From Bacteroidota bacterium (GTDB taxonomy: Bacteria > Bacteroidota > Bacteroidia > Bacteroidales > B39-G9): a stretch of DNA of 35,715 nucleotides. Shown here piece after piece: positions 2,595 through 35,715 of this stretch. A program made the position numbers and the translations under genes. Location: positions 1 through 35,715 of the forward strand of contig JADFUR010000077.1 in NCBI GenBank assembly GCA_015222055.1. Reading direction: 5' to 3'. The number at the start of each line of letters is the position of its first letter. The stretch's first letter is position 1. The notes beneath the pieces were generated by a model, which saw nothing but the letters and a program-made list of their open reading frames with translations, did not search any database and was not told the DNA's origin.

Positions 2595-4553
2595 CTACCT
2601 TCCCAAGGATTTCCATGTTCTAAAAATTATAAAAACATCGTGGTAAATTTTATAATCTTTAGCATAAATTATATTTAATTTCTCAATTAAATTATTTGTA
2701 AAATTTTTGTTTTTGTGCATATCAACAGGGTTTAAAACACCTTTTTTAATAACAGGCAGTTTGCTTGTATTTATTTCTGAATTTAACAAATATCCAACCC
2801 ACGATTTTTCGCCAATCAAAACAATAAAAATATTTTTAATAAAATTCCATTTCCTTTTAACTGTAAAAATTAAAATCGGGCTTAGCAGCAGAAATAAAAC
2901 CGATAGAAGTAAATCAAAAATTCGTTTATTCCTTATATTTGATTTTTTAGATATTGAATTAATATTTACCTCATAAAAATCGCCGGCAGTGTTTATTGAG
3001 TTACTTCCAATAATGGAAAGACTTTCGGGAGGTGCAATTTTATAATCCACTTTAACATTAGAAAGTTGAAGCATATTTTTTATAATCTTTTGGGAAGCAA
3101 TATCTTTTGCACAAAAAACCACTTCGTTAATCTTATTAATTGCTACAATCTCACTTATTTGTTCAACTTTACCAATATACTCAGTCGATTTAATACTTTT
3201 GTCGGGACTAACAAAACCAACAACTTCATGCTTAATTTCAGTATTGTTTAATAAGGATAATACACGGGTGGCTTCTTTTTGATTACCAATAATAATAATT
3301 CTTTTCTTTTTGTTTGAATCAAGTTTAAAATCTTTAATATTCAACGCATTAAGCGACAAGCGAGATATTAAAGTTGATAAAAACGCCCAGCCGGAACCTA
3401 TTAAAATCAATGCTCTTGAAAAACGCCATTGTTCGCTTAACATTGAATAAATAATTAGTATAATTAAAGATCCTGCAACAATTCCTTTTATTATGTTAAT
3501 TAACTTAATTGGTTTTTCGTAACCACCGGAAAACAGCACAGCCAAAATCCAAATTAAAATATAAATAGGAACTACATAAATAAGATAATAATCGGGATAA
3601 GTACCTCCACCTGGGAATTTGTATGCTTCCCAGTAAGGTTTGATAATATAAAACCCTAAAAATATTATTGATGCATCTAATAAAGGCAAGAAAATATTTT
3701 TAAAAAATCTTGCAAGAATAGCCAACATTGCTCTCAAATAAATTGCTGTGTTTATTAATGCTGAAAACGCTTTTGCATTCTTTTTCGAAAAATGTTTCTG
3801 AGCAAAAATTATCATAGCTTTATAAAAAACCATTACATAATTTATACTCCCTTTTTTAGTGCTTTCGCCTTTATAATGTATTATTGTTGTTTTTGGGAAA
3901 TAATAATTTTTATATCCGCCTTTAGTAATTCTGTACGAGAGGTCAATATCCTCGCCATACATAAAATAATCCTCGTCGAGCAAGCCTACTTCGTCTAATG
4001 TTTTTTTACGCAAAAGCATGAATGCTCCTGCTAATATCTCAATCTCATTTATCTCATCTTTATCTAAATATCCGAGATGATATTTGCCAAATGTTTTTGA
4101 TTTTGGAAATAATTTTGAAAGACCCGAAATTTTATAAAAAGCCGTCATCGGTTTGGGTAAACCACGTTTTGATTCGGGTAAAAAATTACCTTTACCATCA
4201 ATCATCTTCACTCCCAGCCCGCCTGCGTCATCATGAGCATCCATGAACTCAATAATATTCTCAAAAGTATCTTCTTCAACAACAGTGTCGGGATTTAGCA
4301 ATAAAACATACTCGCCTTTCGATTTTTTTATTGCCTGATTATTGGCATACGAGAAACCCGTGTTTTTTTTATTTTCGATTAAAAATATATCTGAAAATTT
4401 CTCTCTAACCATTGAACATGAGCCATCAACAGAATTATTGTCAACAACAAAAACCTCGGCATCAATATTTTTTGTTGCTTTTTTTACAGAATAAAGACAT
4501 TGCTCTAAAAAATATTTAACATTATAATTTACAATTATTACTGAAAGCTGCAT
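2595..4553 (-). CDS. GT2 glycosyltransferase fused to a degenerate polyprenyl-phosphate sugar transferase
   Basis: The 652-residue product has two parts. Residues 1-240 are a GT-A family 2 glycosyltransferase of the rhamnosyltransferase-like type: VIIVNYN at the start, VVDNNSVDGS, a NPD triad at 87-89 for nucleotide-sugar/metal binding, and GEDIDLSYR at 200-208. Residues ~265-405 hold four or five hydrophobic helices. Residues ~416-510 form a Rossmann-like domain starting KKKRIIIIG, as in WbaP/WcaJ-type initiating transferases. From 543 (KRIFDLLLS) the sequence enters the C-terminal transferase region, but the catalytic centre seen in that family (the KFRSM and Asp-Glu region) is absent and the frame passes directly to GEKSWVGY (581-588) and the family's C-terminal tail. 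It likely acts at the inner membrane in surface polysaccharide synthesis, with transfer by the GT2 half. The phosphotransferase half is probably inactive. Confidence 0.85.
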   Translation of the reverse strand: MQLSVIIVNYNVKYFLEQCLYSVKKATKNIDAEVFVVDNNSVDGSCSMVREKFSDIFLIENKKNTGFSYANNQAIKKSKGEYVLLLNPDTVVEEDTFENIIEFMDAHDDAGGLGVKMIDGKGNFLPESKRGLPKPMTAFYKISGLSKLFPKSKTFGKYHLGYLDKDEINEIEILAGAFMLLRKKTLDEVGLLDEDYFMYGEDIDLSYRITKGGYKNYYFPKTTIIHYKGESTKKGSINYVMVFYKAMIIFAQKHFSKKNAKAFSALINTAIYLRAMLAILARFFKNIFLPLLDASIIFLGFYIIKPYWEAYKFPGGGTYPDYYLIYVVPIYILIWILAVLFSGGYEKPIKLINIIKGIVAGSLIILIIYSMLSEQWRFSRALILIGSGWAFLSTLISRLSLNALNIKDFKLDSNKKKRIIIIGNQKEATRVLSLLNNTEIKHEVVGFVSPDKSIKSTEYIGKVEQISEIVAINKINEVVFCAKDIASQKIIKNMLQLSNVKVDYKIAPPESLSIIGSNSINTAGDFYEVNINSISKKSNIRNKRIFDLLLSVLFLLLSPILIFTVKRKWNFIKNIFIVLIGEKSWVGYLLNSEINTSKLPVIKKGVLNPVDMHKNKNFTNNLIEKLNIIYAKDYKIYHDVFIIFRTWKSLGR

Positions 4554-4586: not shown

Positions 4587-4714
4587 CCATTTTTTTTATT
4601 AAAAATTAGCAATTACTTATGTTCCTGTTAATTTATAATAGGTCTATTTTTCGGTAAAGACAATATCAATAATTTTTAAATTGTGTAATAATTGTAATTC
4701 TATAAAAATTTAGA

Positions 4715-4737
4715 CTTTCAGATTGCAAATCCGAAAG
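4715..4737. repeat. Palindromic repeat P1, copy 3 (one mismatch)
   Basis: CTTTCAGATT-GCA-AATCCGAAAG followed by AGC. It has one arm mismatch to the other copies and lies in the 223-bp gap between two minus-strand genes. Confidence 0.8.
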
Positions 4738-4776
4738 AGCGACGGGAATAACAATTTAACCATTAACAATTAATAA

Positions 4777-6594
4777 TTATTTAATAATTTTCATCACACA
4801 ATTTTTACAATCGAACTCTAAACGATATTTATTGTTTTTGTCAACAAGGTAAAGAGGCTCAACAATTTTGGAATGTTTCTTGATTTTGGGACATAGTCCA
4901 AACTGATATTTTAAACAATGTCTTGTTGTCATAATTGTTTTCCCGTCAAGCTTTTTTTGTAATTCAAAGGCTGGTTCTGTTTTTTCAGCTTTATGCCGTT
5001 TATAAAACTCTTCTGCTTTTTTGTTTAATATGTTTGCATTGAAATCAAGCTTTTTTTCAGGATAGGGGAAATTATTTTTCACCAAGCTCACTCTTTGAAG
5101 CTTATAATTTTTCTCTCTTTCTTTTTCAAGAAGAGTTAAAACCTCTCGTCTCATATTATTTAATGCACTAATCTGTATAAAATAATTTTCTTTTACATTT
5201 ATCTCAATTTTAGATGCATTAAATATGGAATTCCCTGTTTTGCTTATTTGTTTTTTTATATTCTCATTAAAATTATTCTTATTGTTTGATAATATTTTTT
5301 TGCAATCATAAGAGTATTGAACAAAATTATCATCTTCATCTTTTGCTTTAATACAAAACCCATTATCAGTCTCTTCAAAAACAAATTCAACATCAATTTT
5401 TCGTTGCGATGTATTATTTGAATTTAACTTTTTAGTAAAATTTTTGTCAAGATTTCTATAAATAGAAGTTTCTTCTTTTATATTGATTTTCTCAGCCGTA
5501 TAAATTTTATCACCAACAACATTATTAATATTAATTCCTACGAGCTTACCTTCTTTATTAAAAAAACAAATTCCATCGCCATTGTTAAGCTTTGATTTTG
5601 AATTAATTACAAAATAATCTTTGTTAACAGAAGAGACCTTGCCAATAAATTCCCCAATAGCTTTGGGTGTGTTTAGCGATACAATATCCTTCTGTCGTTC
5701 GTGTAAAAAATAATTAGTGAAACCACGCGAAAATGTTTTTTCGGGCACAGGATTAAAATATATTTTTGTTTTGCCCGACGATGCTTTTATTATTGATTTA
5801 TCTGTTTCAATTAGACTATCAATTTTTTGTCGATAATAAGATGTTATATTTTTCACATAGCCGACATCTTTTAGTCTGCCTTCAATTTTAAAAGTTGAAA
5901 TTCCTGCTTTAATAAGCTCATTTAAATGGGCCGAAAGGTTTAAATCTTTCATCGATAACAGATGCTTATCCTTAGCCAAAACATTTCCTTTTGCGTCAAC
6001 CAACGAATAAGGCAGACGGCAAGGCTGAGCACATTCTCCTCTGTTTGCACTTCGGTTATATACAGCTTGACTAAAATAGCATTGTCCGCTAAAACTTACA
6101 CATAATGCACCGTGCACAAAATATTCAAGCTCAATATTAGTATTTTGATTTATATTATTTATTTGCTTTAGAGATAATTCTCTTGCGAGGATAAGTCTTT
6201 GAAAACCCACATTCTGTAAAAATAAAATTTTATTTAAATCATAATTATGAGTTTGTGTACTGGCATGTAAAGGAATTGGCGGCAAATCTAATTCAAGTAA
6301 TCCCATATCCTGAATAATAAGGGCATCAGCACCAGCTTGATATAATTGATTTATAATTTTTTTAACACCTTCTAATTCATCATCAAACAAAATTGTGTTA
6401 ATTGTAATATAAACTTTTGCATAATATTTATGAGCATATTTAATTAGTGCTTCAATATCTTGAATATTGTTACTGGCGGCTTTTCGTGCACCAAATTTAG
6501 AAGCACCGATATAAACAGCATCAGCACCATGATTAATTGCGGCAATACCACATTCTAAATTTTTAGCAGGCGATAATAGTTCAATAGTTGTCAT
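4777..6594 (-). CDS. Peptidase U32-family protein (RlhA/TrhP-like RNA hydroxylation type)
   Basis: The 605-residue protein belongs to the U32 family, whose characterised bacterial members (RlhA, TrhP/YegQ) take part in hydroxylation of rRNA or tRNA rather than proteolysis. The N-terminus (ELLSPAKNLECGIAAINHGADAVYIGA) is the TIM-barrel start of the family. The conserved cysteine cluster appears as HGALCVSFSGQC (C165, C172) and RGECAQPCR (C188, C192), a likely iron-sulfur site. Downstream lies a region like DUF3656 and a Cys-rich C-terminus (RHCLKYQFGLCP, then CKNC at 596-599). The length suits the long U32 subgroup. A good promoter is seen at 6614-6643, so it is probably transcribed alone. The exact RNA target is not decidable from sequence. 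Confidence 0.9.
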   Translation of the reverse strand: MTTIELLSPAKNLECGIAAINHGADAVYIGASKFGARKAASNNIQDIEALIKYAHKYYAKVYITINTILFDDELEGVKKIINQLYQAGADALIIQDMGLLELDLPPIPLHASTQTHNYDLNKILFLQNVGFQRLILARELSLKQINNINQNTNIELEYFVHGALCVSFSGQCYFSQAVYNRSANRGECAQPCRLPYSLVDAKGNVLAKDKHLLSMKDLNLSAHLNELIKAGISTFKIEGRLKDVGYVKNITSYYRQKIDSLIETDKSIIKASSGKTKIYFNPVPEKTFSRGFTNYFLHERQKDIVSLNTPKAIGEFIGKVSSVNKDYFVINSKSKLNNGDGICFFNKEGKLVGININNVVGDKIYTAEKINIKEETSIYRNLDKNFTKKLNSNNTSQRKIDVEFVFEETDNGFCIKAKDEDDNFVQYSYDCKKILSNNKNNFNENIKKQISKTGNSIFNASKIEINVKENYFIQISALNNMRREVLTLLEKEREKNYKLQRVSLVKNNFPYPEKKLDFNANILNKKAEEFYKRHKAEKTEPAFELQKKLDGKTIMTTRHCLKYQFGLCPKIKKHSKIVEPLYLVDKNNKYRLEFDCKNCVMKIIK

Positions 6595-9888: not shown

Positions 9889-9962
9889 TCTATATATTAT
9901 TGATATTATTTAAACTTTTAACTTTATAACTTTATGAACTTTTAACTCTTTACTTTTAACTC

Positions 9963-10050
9963 TATGAACTCTAAAATCTATGAACTCTAAAATCTATGAA
10001 CTCTAAAATCTATGAACTCTATGAACTCTAAAATCTATGAACTCTAAACT
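9963..10050. repeat. 16-bp tandem repeat array
   Basis: The unit TATGAACTCTAAAATC is repeated head to tail at 9963, 9979 and 9995; a 9-bp partial unit (TATGAACTC) follows at 10011, then a full unit at 10020 and a last incomplete unit at 10036-10050. The preceding 60 bp (ACTTTATAACTTTATGAAC ...) look like decayed versions. It sits in the 168-bp gap between two minus-strand genes. Confidence 0.9.
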
Positions 10051-12435: not shown

Positions 12436-12457
12436 ACTAACAAACTGTATATTAATA

Positions 12458-12480
12458 CTTTCGGATTGCAAATCCGAAAG
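12458..12480. repeat. Palindromic repeat P1, copy 4
   Basis: CTTTCGGATT-GCA-AATCCGAAAG with upstream ATATTAATA and downstream AGC, identical to the copy at 966. It lies in the gap between convergent genes. Confidence 0.9.
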
Positions 12481-12495
12481 AGCATAGAATAAATA

Positions 12496-33047: not shown

Positions 33048-33328
33048 TAATTAAATCCCCACCCAATTCCTTTCATTTCATTATAGTAATATTTGTTTTT
33101 GTCTAAAAATTAGAGGCAAAAACTTTAAAGCTGTAAGAAAAATTGGTTTTTTGTTATACCAAGTGTAGCAAAAAAGGCATTGTTTTAAATACAGTTTTTT
33201 GTTATTGTTGTAAATTTACAAAATTTGTATGAGATGAAAAATCTTTTTTTGGTTTTGTTTTTAAGAAGTTGAGTTCATAAAAAGCGTAGTTGGAGAGTAA
33301 TCTTAGCAGTGGATATTTTTTTCCGTCT
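33048..33328. repeat. Accessory-island spacer repeat, copy 1
   Basis: It begins near TTAAATCCCCACCCAATTCC and continues ATTATAGTAATATTTGTTTT, TTGTTATACCAAGTGTAGC, TTGTAAATTTACAAAATTTG, TTTTTAAGAAG and GGAGAGTAATCTTAGCAG, ending near TTTTTTCCGTC. Copies 2 (33634-33940) and 3 (35550-35715) share the core. It lies upstream of the DUF3883 gene and its far end is embedded in the Bro-N gene. Confidence 0.85.
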
Positions 33329-33633: not shown

Positions 33634-33940
33634 CAATTAAATACCCGCCCAATTCCGTTTATTTCCATTATAGTAATATTTGTTTTTGTCTAAAATTAGA
33701 GGCGAAAAATTTAAAGCTGTAAAAAAAATTGGTTTTTTGTTATAACAAGTGTAGCAAAAAAGGCATTGTTTTAGATACAGTTTTTTAATACAGTTGTAAA
33801 TTTACAAAATTTGTATGAGCTAACAAATAATCTTATGGTTTTGTTTTTAAGAAGCTGAGGTATTCATTTAAAAGCGTAGTCAGAGACAACGCTTAGCGGG
33901 GGTTTGGAGAGTAATCTTAGCAGGACTCAAGTTTTCCGTC
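33634..33940. repeat. Accessory-island spacer repeat, copy 2
   Basis: Direct repeat of copy 1: CAATTAAATACCCGCCCAAT, CATTATAGTAATATTTG, TTGTTATAACAAGTGTAGC, TTGTAAATTTACAAAATTTG, AAAGCGTAGTCAGAGACAAC and GGAGAGTAATCTTAGCAG, then TTTTCCGTC. It carries an extra hairpin segment (33874-33892) absent from copy 1. It ends 4 bp before the stop codon of the SecB-like gene. The stretch 33550-33944 contains no gene. Confidence 0.85.
33870..33895 (-). terminator. Putative terminator after the SecB-like gene
   Basis: The minus strand forms GCGTTGTC-TCT-GACTACGC (one mismatched pair) followed by TTTTAAAT. It is the first hairpin after the end of the toxin-antitoxin-chaperone operon and resembles the DUF2971 terminator at 28233-28247. 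Confidence 0.55.
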
Positions 33941-35488: not shown

Positions 35489-35549
35489 TATATCTTTTAA
35501 CATATTTTTAGAATTTCCTTAATTTCTCATTATACCAAACGAATGAATT

Positions 35550-35715
35550 AGTGAGTTTTTTGTTATAACAAGTGTAGCAAAAAAGGCTTTGTTTTAAATA
35601 CAGTTTTTTAATACTTGGGTAAATTTACAAAATTTGTATGAGTTGAAAAATATTTTTTTGGTTTTGTTTTTAAGAAGTTGAGTGCATTTAAAAACTTAGT
35701 TAGAGATTACTCTTA
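35550..35715. repeat. Accessory-island spacer repeat, copy 3 (runs off the window)
   Basis: GTTTTTTGTTATAACAAGTG, AAAAAAGGCTTTGTTTTAAA, GGGTAAATTTACAAAATTTG, TTTTTAAGAAGTTGAGTGCA and TTAGAGATTACTCTTA match copies 1 and 2 in the same orientation. It lies upstream of the TAC-type operon and continues past the window end. Confidence 0.85.

Follow-up and report, generated by a model that had tools for sequence, protein, structure and literature searches.

A Bacteroidota bacterium of the B39-G9 lineage encodes a 652-residue protein in which a GT2 glycosyltransferase continues into the body of a large monotopic phosphoglycosyl transferase (PGT; the large type, Lg-PGT) that lacks its catalytic centre. 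On the sequence evidence, both the descent from a PGT and the loss of the catalytic centre are clear, and the dead domain is under purifying selection. We consider it probable, with a good deal of room for doubt, that an active GT2 is held at the membrane by the dead PGT scaffold and acts beside one particular active Lg-PGT. Lg-PGTs, GT2s and PGT fusions are already known; the conserved dead form is new as far as our searches show, and no description of dead PGT scaffolds of this kind was found in the literature searched (open-licence papers).

Gene and domain organization

The window, that is, the whole stretch of DNA analyzed, comprises 35,715 nucleotides (contig JADFUR010000077.1, assembly GCA_015222055.1). 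At positions 2595-4553 the minus strand is open for 652 aa, and the plus strand over the same positions is riddled with stops. A preliminary description had taken this gene for an intact frame joining a glycosyltransferase to a WbaP/WcaJ-type sugar transferase; the open frame, the Pfam matches (GT2 and CoA_binding_3) and profile-profile alignment (hhalign) agree with it on both counts. The features are as follows.

2595-4553, minus strand (stop codon at 2595-2597): whole gene, GT2 plus catalytically dead large-PGT scaffold, 652 aa; open frame with full-length orthologs.
3834-4553, minus strand: GT2 glycosyltransferase domain, residues 1-240; PF00535 (E 1.3e-23), invariant motifs, GT-A structures at the top of the fold search.
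3702-3833, minus strand: conserved helical stretch linking the GT2 to the membrane part, residues 241-284; model helices 230-254 and 257-312, conserved in alignment A1.
3339-3701, minus strand: predicted four-helix transmembrane bundle, residues 285-405; four helices in the C-half model, aligns with Lg-PGTs and WbaP.
2946-3308, minus strand: Rossmann/DUF domain of Lg-PGTs, residues 416-536; PF13727, hhalign.
2961-3014, minus strand: IIGSNS segment, residues 514-531, putatively at the place of the WbaP domain-swapping hairpin (251-268), going by WbaP alignment numbering and the hairpin limits in the part of PMC10942596 cited here.
2865-2933, minus strand: re-entrant helix remnant of the PGT domain, residues 541-563 (KR.FD, then Pro; D-x11-P); alignments.
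2832-2861, minus strand: junction without the catalytic core (KFRSM to LDELP), residues 565-574; gaps of 52 and 8 residues, WbaP jump from 307 to 382.
2598-2831, minus strand: C-terminal PGT-domain remnant, residues 575-652 (WVGY; Tyr630 and Asp639 kept); Y630 in 162/162 and D639 in 159/162 members.

The GT2 domain is recognized by Pfam at residues 4-127 (84.2 bits against a cut-off of 23.3) and has the acidic motif of such enzymes. The Rossmann part of Lg-PGTs, CoA_binding_3 (PF13727), matches residues 363-508 (E 7.5e-8) and, together with hhalign and the structural model, gives the C half the bundle and Rossmann/DUF of a large PGT. The match to the NCBIfam exopolysaccharide sugar transferase model EPS_sugtrans (TIGR03025) spans residues 292-564, equivalent to model positions 2-280 of 445, and breaks off there, and the PGT catalytic domain (PF02397) had no match at E <= 1 in a Pfam search with the whole 652-aa protein. 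None of the Pfam or NCBIfam models matched covers the joint architecture. The adjoining genes code for a U32 peptidase (4777-6594, same strand) and a D-2-hydroxyacid dehydrogenase (1316-2266, other strand).

The window also contains repeats. A dispersed intergenic repeat, CTTTCGGATT(G/A)CAAATCCGAAAGAGC, lies at 959-991, 2448-2480, 4708-4740 and 12451-12483 (one copy being a variant), on both sides of the fused gene; exact copies of its 19-mer core number 27 across the genome, against none for the reversed control. Repeat blocks at 673-1062 and 2277-2574 (160, 74 and 65 nt, 88-96% alike) flank the dehydrogenase gene, a 168-nt repeat occurs three times (33106-33273, 33692-33859 and 35515-35682; 77-90% alike), and an overlapping direct-repeat array with a spacing of mostly 16 nt occupies 9953-10048.

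Loss of the catalytic segment

We collected 162 long members of the family (160 distinct sequences, some loci sharing one genome): the window's own, 1 of the same genus, 2 of the same family, 32 of the same order, 11 of the same class, 37 of other classes and 78 from a named collection. Their C halves were aligned by hhalign with 28 PF02397 proteins of more than 400 aa from the window's genome and its relatives (probability 99.94, E 1.7e-36, 358 columns). The alignment located the missing segment as two gaps, one of 52 residues that contains KFRTM and one of 8 residues that corresponds to KMRLDELP, with the Asp-Glu dyad. The absence of the catalytic Asp-Glu and KFRSM, claimed in the preliminary description, is thus confirmed: the fused protein has neither of these hallmarks of large PGTs. 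Flanking the cut are KRIFDLLLS (residues 543-551) and GEKSWVGY (581-588). From K543 to G587 the long members have a median length of 45 residues (range 39-80); in intact PGTs this stretch is 101 residues in 16 of the 22 measured, the spacing pattern giving no value for 6 of the 28 and outliers of 139, 176 and 394.

Comparison with solved structures located the cut at the same place. A profile of 43 C halves matched WbaP in three pieces (30us, E 8.7e-27; 8t53, E 6.3e-26), jumping from WbaP position 307 to 382, and matched PglC, a small monotopic PGT (8e37 and 8g1n, E about 4e-12), solely from chain position 99 onward, in a numbering that may differ from the published one by a few tag residues. 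The dyad of PglC is D93-E94, with K59, R88 and R111 as further active-site residues in the part of PMC12802240 cited here. The likeness to PglC (chain positions 99-185) is therefore confined to the C-terminal part, starting just past the dyad region, and the catalytic half is gone. When PF02397 was run against the 43 C halves, 29 matched at E <= 1 (best 3e-15); the window's own C half gave E 0.61 and 10.0 bits, below the curated cut-off of 27, over profile positions 127-176 alone. Another mark of the enzymes, the D-x12-P motif of the re-entrant helix, is termed strictly conserved in PMC12802240. The window's protein has D-x11-P (D547 to P559), while the x12 spacing occurs in at least 17 of the 37 family members from other classes and, by a crude pattern, in 22 of the 28 intact PGTs.

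Catalytic residues were not found elsewhere in the protein either. Searches for K(F/L)R(S/T)M and LDE(L/I/F/W)P-type motifs in the family ORFs of L166-L214, and for K(F/L)R(S/T)M and DE(L/I/F/W)P in those of L250-L279, gave no hit, and a DE dipeptide between K543 and G587 is absent from all 162 long members, the window's own included. The loss therefore stands. A relocation of the catalytic residues within the protein is rejected on these searches, and a frameshift or assembly artefact on the conservation across relatives.

The fused protein thus resembles Lg-PGTs (WbaP, WcaJ, EpsZ) in the four-helix bundle, the Rossmann/DUF domain, the start of the re-entrant helix and the C-terminal subdomain. 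It differs from them in having a GT2 placed in front, no KFRSM and no Asp-Glu dyad, WVGY where the active enzymes have SLVGPRP, and D-x11-P instead of D-x12-P. Bifunctional monoPGTs combine a PGT domain and another enzyme in one chain. They have been named as a class (in the part of PMC10653937 cited here), and the fused protein is like them in joining a PGT-derived domain to another enzyme; they have an active PGT domain, whereas here the dyad and KFRSM are missing and that domain is dead.

Structure

The model of the full-length protein (pLDDT 83) matched GT-A enzymes over residues 1-273 with Z up to 23.3, and a fold search on the GT2 returned ppGalNAc-T2, TarS and RmlT, GT2 enzymes that share the GT-A fold but not the fusion to a PGT scaffold. 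Since the VIA-align results for the whole model were filled by GT2 rows, the C half was folded alone. That model (pLDDT 86) contains the bundle with its four helices, a Rossmann fold, and a PGT remnant that is helical. WbaP 8t53 was its sole Foldseek match at E <= 0.001 (1.2e-10) and also the top one by Z (12.5 over 312 residues, rmsd 12.4), a score that is not decisive alone for helical bundles. The global superposition is poor (TM 0.28-0.29, rmsd 13), which counts against the role that we favor; in the models, the parts appear alike and their relative placement different. PglC superposed on the C-terminal part with Z 8.1 and rmsd 4.0 over 112 residues. Residues 514-531, aligned with the domain-swapping hairpin of WbaP, are modelled with low confidence in the monomer; the hairpin of WbaP was oddly placed when that enzyme was modelled as a monomer, according to the part of PMC10942596 cited here.

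Conservation and selection

The GT2 motifs N87 P88 D89, G200 E201 D202, D204 and H226 are present in all 162 long members, so sugar transfer is likely the surviving activity. The PGT-derived part is also well conserved: Lys543 is found in 153, Arg544 in 155, Gly587 in 156, Asp639 in 159 and Tyr630 in all of the 162, and the family-specific Trp585 in 124. Between the window and a congener (88.7% identity), dN/dS by the Nei-Gojobori method was 0.040 for the GT2, 0.097 for the bundle, 0.084 for the Rossmann domain and 0.103 for the PGT remnant. Of 53 pairs, 40 were listed; where dS was finite in these, the value for the remnant never exceeded 0.29 and was mostly above that of the GT2. A lost catalytic motif in a fold under purifying selection is what characterizes a pseudoenzyme, and both are found here.

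These values bear on two other views of the C half. One is that it is the decaying leftover of a bifunctional GT-PGT, functionless now. The later erosion in several lineages (see below) would fit, as would the one member whose C part is broken by stops (G069), but with so low a dN/dS in the remnant and the identical cut in every one of the 162 members we regard this as highly improbable. The other, that the C half carries a different, new chemistry, could draw on Trp585 and the invariant Tyr630. However, no new conserved acid cluster was seen in the remnant, several of the conserved residues are common to intact PGTs, and we give this view hardly any credence. A loss of activity with retention of the scaffold, as the preliminary description had it, is what the open frames in the relatives, the uniform cut and the purifying selection bear out.

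Distribution and age of the cut

Among 99 genomes (the window's own and 98 relatives), the family is present in 72 (best E < 1e-60) and absent from 27, in a table read by eye. The search for the same fusion in related genomes found one open frame aligned to residue 600 or beyond in 60 of the 99; in G037, G050, G054 and G066 the gene is truncated by contig ends. A scan with one genome per species gave at least 574 candidates, and the best 80 of them are all labelled as Bacteroidota, Bacteroidetes or their subgroups, bar one "uncultured bacterium". Of 395 genomes sampled across the phylum, 291 are hit at E <= 1e-30 among the matches listed, an upper figure because presumed GT2 paralogs (e.g., L265-L273) are counted.

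The C-terminal end of the remnant was compared with intact PGTs by profile score (of four motif patterns tried first, two matched none of the 28 intact PGTs). The members from other classes scored higher, with a median of 8.4 bits and at least 10 bits in 18 of 37, against a median of 3.0 bits and at least 10 bits in 15 of 125 for the remaining ones. From this resemblance and the distribution across classes, the catalytic cut looks older than the sampled Bacteroidota classes, unless it has spread by transfer. An intact ancestor, with the GT2 joined to an active PGT, was not found among the family members fetched. Two further variants were seen: in G027 (L129:4297-7188) the long form continues without a stop for some 300 residues more (963 aa in total), and in distant families the GT2 carries an insert near position 187, of about 26-31 residues in L257, L258, L259, L260 and L262 and about 17 in L263.

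Short forms and later erosion

Short forms of 277-405 aa are found in six genomes within the order (L117-L121, L214) and in sixteen belonging to other families of the class (L215-L230). These 22 exclude the contig-cut L058, L089, L122-L127 and L131 as well as L128 and L130; further short forms (L253, L255, L261) lie outside them. Their surroundings contain recR in 15 of the 22, a 2-oxoacid-dehydrogenase E2-like gene in 7 (just 28% identical to the query in L225) and a GNAT gene in 5. When long and short forms are pooled, giving 127 loci of which many have short flanks, recR lay upstream in 42, E2 was present in 25, GNAT in 21 and an upstream PS decarboxylase in 16, the neighbor families being named from one representative apiece. 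The recR, E2 and GNAT neighbors are common to short and long forms.

The tails of 16 short forms jointly match the Rossmann domain (97.4, E 9.7e-12; singly, i-E ranges from 5e-9 to 66), and an (I/V/L)GS...G segment stands at the end of 10 of the 22. It would appear that these orthologs kept the GT2 while most of the scaffold went, some lineages retaining a Rossmann-derived tail. A tree of 89 GT2 domains (24 short or broken, L128 and L130 among them, and 65 chosen of the 162 long ones) has 8 changes of architecture, 3 of them forced by well-supported branches, with five short rows very long-branched; the homology of the tails suggests that the changes are losses of the scaffold. A 426-aa form in G043 (L128:4587-5867) has kept the GT2 and the helix bundle, and the Rossmann domain and PGT remnant are missing. 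FpgA of Flavobacterium psychrophilum, 319 aa and adjoining another glycosyltransferase gene in the part of PMC4293000 cited here, was considered as an ortholog. It was judged a different GT2, by size and neighbor gene and not by sequence, since the f99 orthologs have 366-392 aa.

Short orthologs with a GT2 and no membrane part indicate that some lineages can dispense with the scaffold, and that several manage without bundle and PGT remnant weighs against a membrane scaffold as the best reading. In many of them the Rossmann remnant has outlasted both, as might be expected if this domain were mainly a nucleotide sensor throttling the GT2 and the PGT remnant were ballast. There is a precedent in WbaP, whose DUF is stabilized by UMP, UDP and UTP and whose full enzyme is inhibited by UMP (in the part of PMC10942596 cited here). 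Yet the PGT remnant is itself under purifying selection, with its invariant tyrosine, and much of the Rossmann body is gone from the short tails, so that we hold a sensor role to be unlikely.

Linkage and co-occurrence with an intact Lg-PGT

A screen of 194 loci for PGT-like neighbors gave eight positives, all from other classes. We then examined 20 wider stretches from other classes (L280-L299), the eight positives and twelve more. An intact Lg-PGT gene, with KFR(S/T)M-type and DE-P motifs, was found on the same strand in 14 of the 20 (8 of the 20 having been preselected for it), within three genes in 12 and at +4 in L296 and +6 in L294. The twelve stretches that were not preselected had it in 6, within three genes in 4. 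The genes usually follow one another as Lg-PGT, another GT2 (about 240 aa), the fused gene and accA; in L286, L287 and L297 the PGT, small GT2 and accA are on the other side, past one opposite-strand gene. The small GT2, present in 12 of the 20, is by eye like dolichol-phosphate-mannose-synthase-like enzymes, Pfam assigning GT2 only. AccA is present in 18 of the 20, and in 15 of these 18 it is directly behind the fused gene, an odd pairing of glycan and fatty acid synthesis. Neither gene occurs in the control loci (L033-L112, a named collection drawn mostly from the part of the phylum to which the window belongs, with no flank longer than 6 kb; L040 was dropped as it lacked an anchor).

Scored against the PGT of locus L113 in the window's genome, the 12 close PGTs reach 241-332 bits, compared with 133-171 bits against that of L114; those of L294 and L296 had their top scores against other relatives' PGTs. 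An L113-type PGT (E <= 1e-60) occurs in 78 of the 99 genomes, one apiece. From lists taken from the tables by hand, 65 genomes have both it and the family, 7 the family only, 13 the PGT only and 14 neither (p 2.0e-5, kinship ignored); for the 86 genomes at least 90% complete the figures are 60, 4, 10 and 12 (p 4.5e-6, kinship ignored). In a weaker test, none of the five genomes that lack PF02397 proteins altogether has the family (p 0.0011, kinship again ignored). The neighboring PGT genes and the co-occurrence raise the odds that the fused protein works with an active PGT. On the other side, none of the 79 control loci has an Lg-PGT neighbor, and four of the genomes at least 90% complete (G038, G041, G053 and G059) have the family without the L113-type PGT.

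The preliminary description had also suggested a complex with an active enzyme. The working together is supported by the linkage in other classes and by the co-occurrence; physical contact would be a further step. The dead scaffold might bind the active Lg-PGT directly, bundle and Rossmann domain pairing the two into a mixed dimer in which newly made Und-PP-sugar passes straight to the GT2. The regions by which WbaP dimerizes are kept and linkage and co-occurrence involve one PGT type, both as direct binding would have it. Linkage, however, speaks for a shared pathway and not for contact, and the short forms do without the bundle; we see direct binding as a possibility, and a doubtful one. Direct docking, nucleotide sensing and plain anchoring would look alike in the sequences.

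Proposed role

In the reading that we favor, a GT2 working at the membrane on a dead scaffold, a large monotopic PGT body fused to a GT2 would have lost its active site long ago. As the fold suggests, the four-helix bundle and what remains of the re-entrant helix would fix the protein to the cytoplasmic face of the inner membrane and so hold the GT2 there. By analogy with WbaP, the Rossmann domain and the IIGS hairpin would probably pair two copies into a dimer. There the lipid-linked product of one particular active Lg-PGT in the cell would serve as the acceptor to which the GT2 transfers a sugar. The likeliest such Lg-PGT in the window's genome is that of locus L113, and the scaffold would keep the GT2 near this partner.

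Monotopic PGTs start many bacterial surface glycans and have been studied as gatekeepers. A wider and more tentative proposal, which we rate as less likely to be right than wrong, is that the family is a phylum-wide pseudo-PGT. A GT2-PGT fusion that existed before the split of the classes would have lost its priming site and become a non-catalytic membrane platform, docking one active Lg-PGT and organizing the next glycan step, and some lineages would later have been pared to a Rossmann tail ending at the dimerization hairpin. Whether or not that proposal holds, a dead PGT joined to a GT2, conserved widely and in distant classes linked to an intact PGT gene, would be the first pseudo-PGT described, as far as literature searches show. 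It would provide a natural test of the role of the non-catalytic bundle and DUF, and would point to a glycan pathway common across the phylum.
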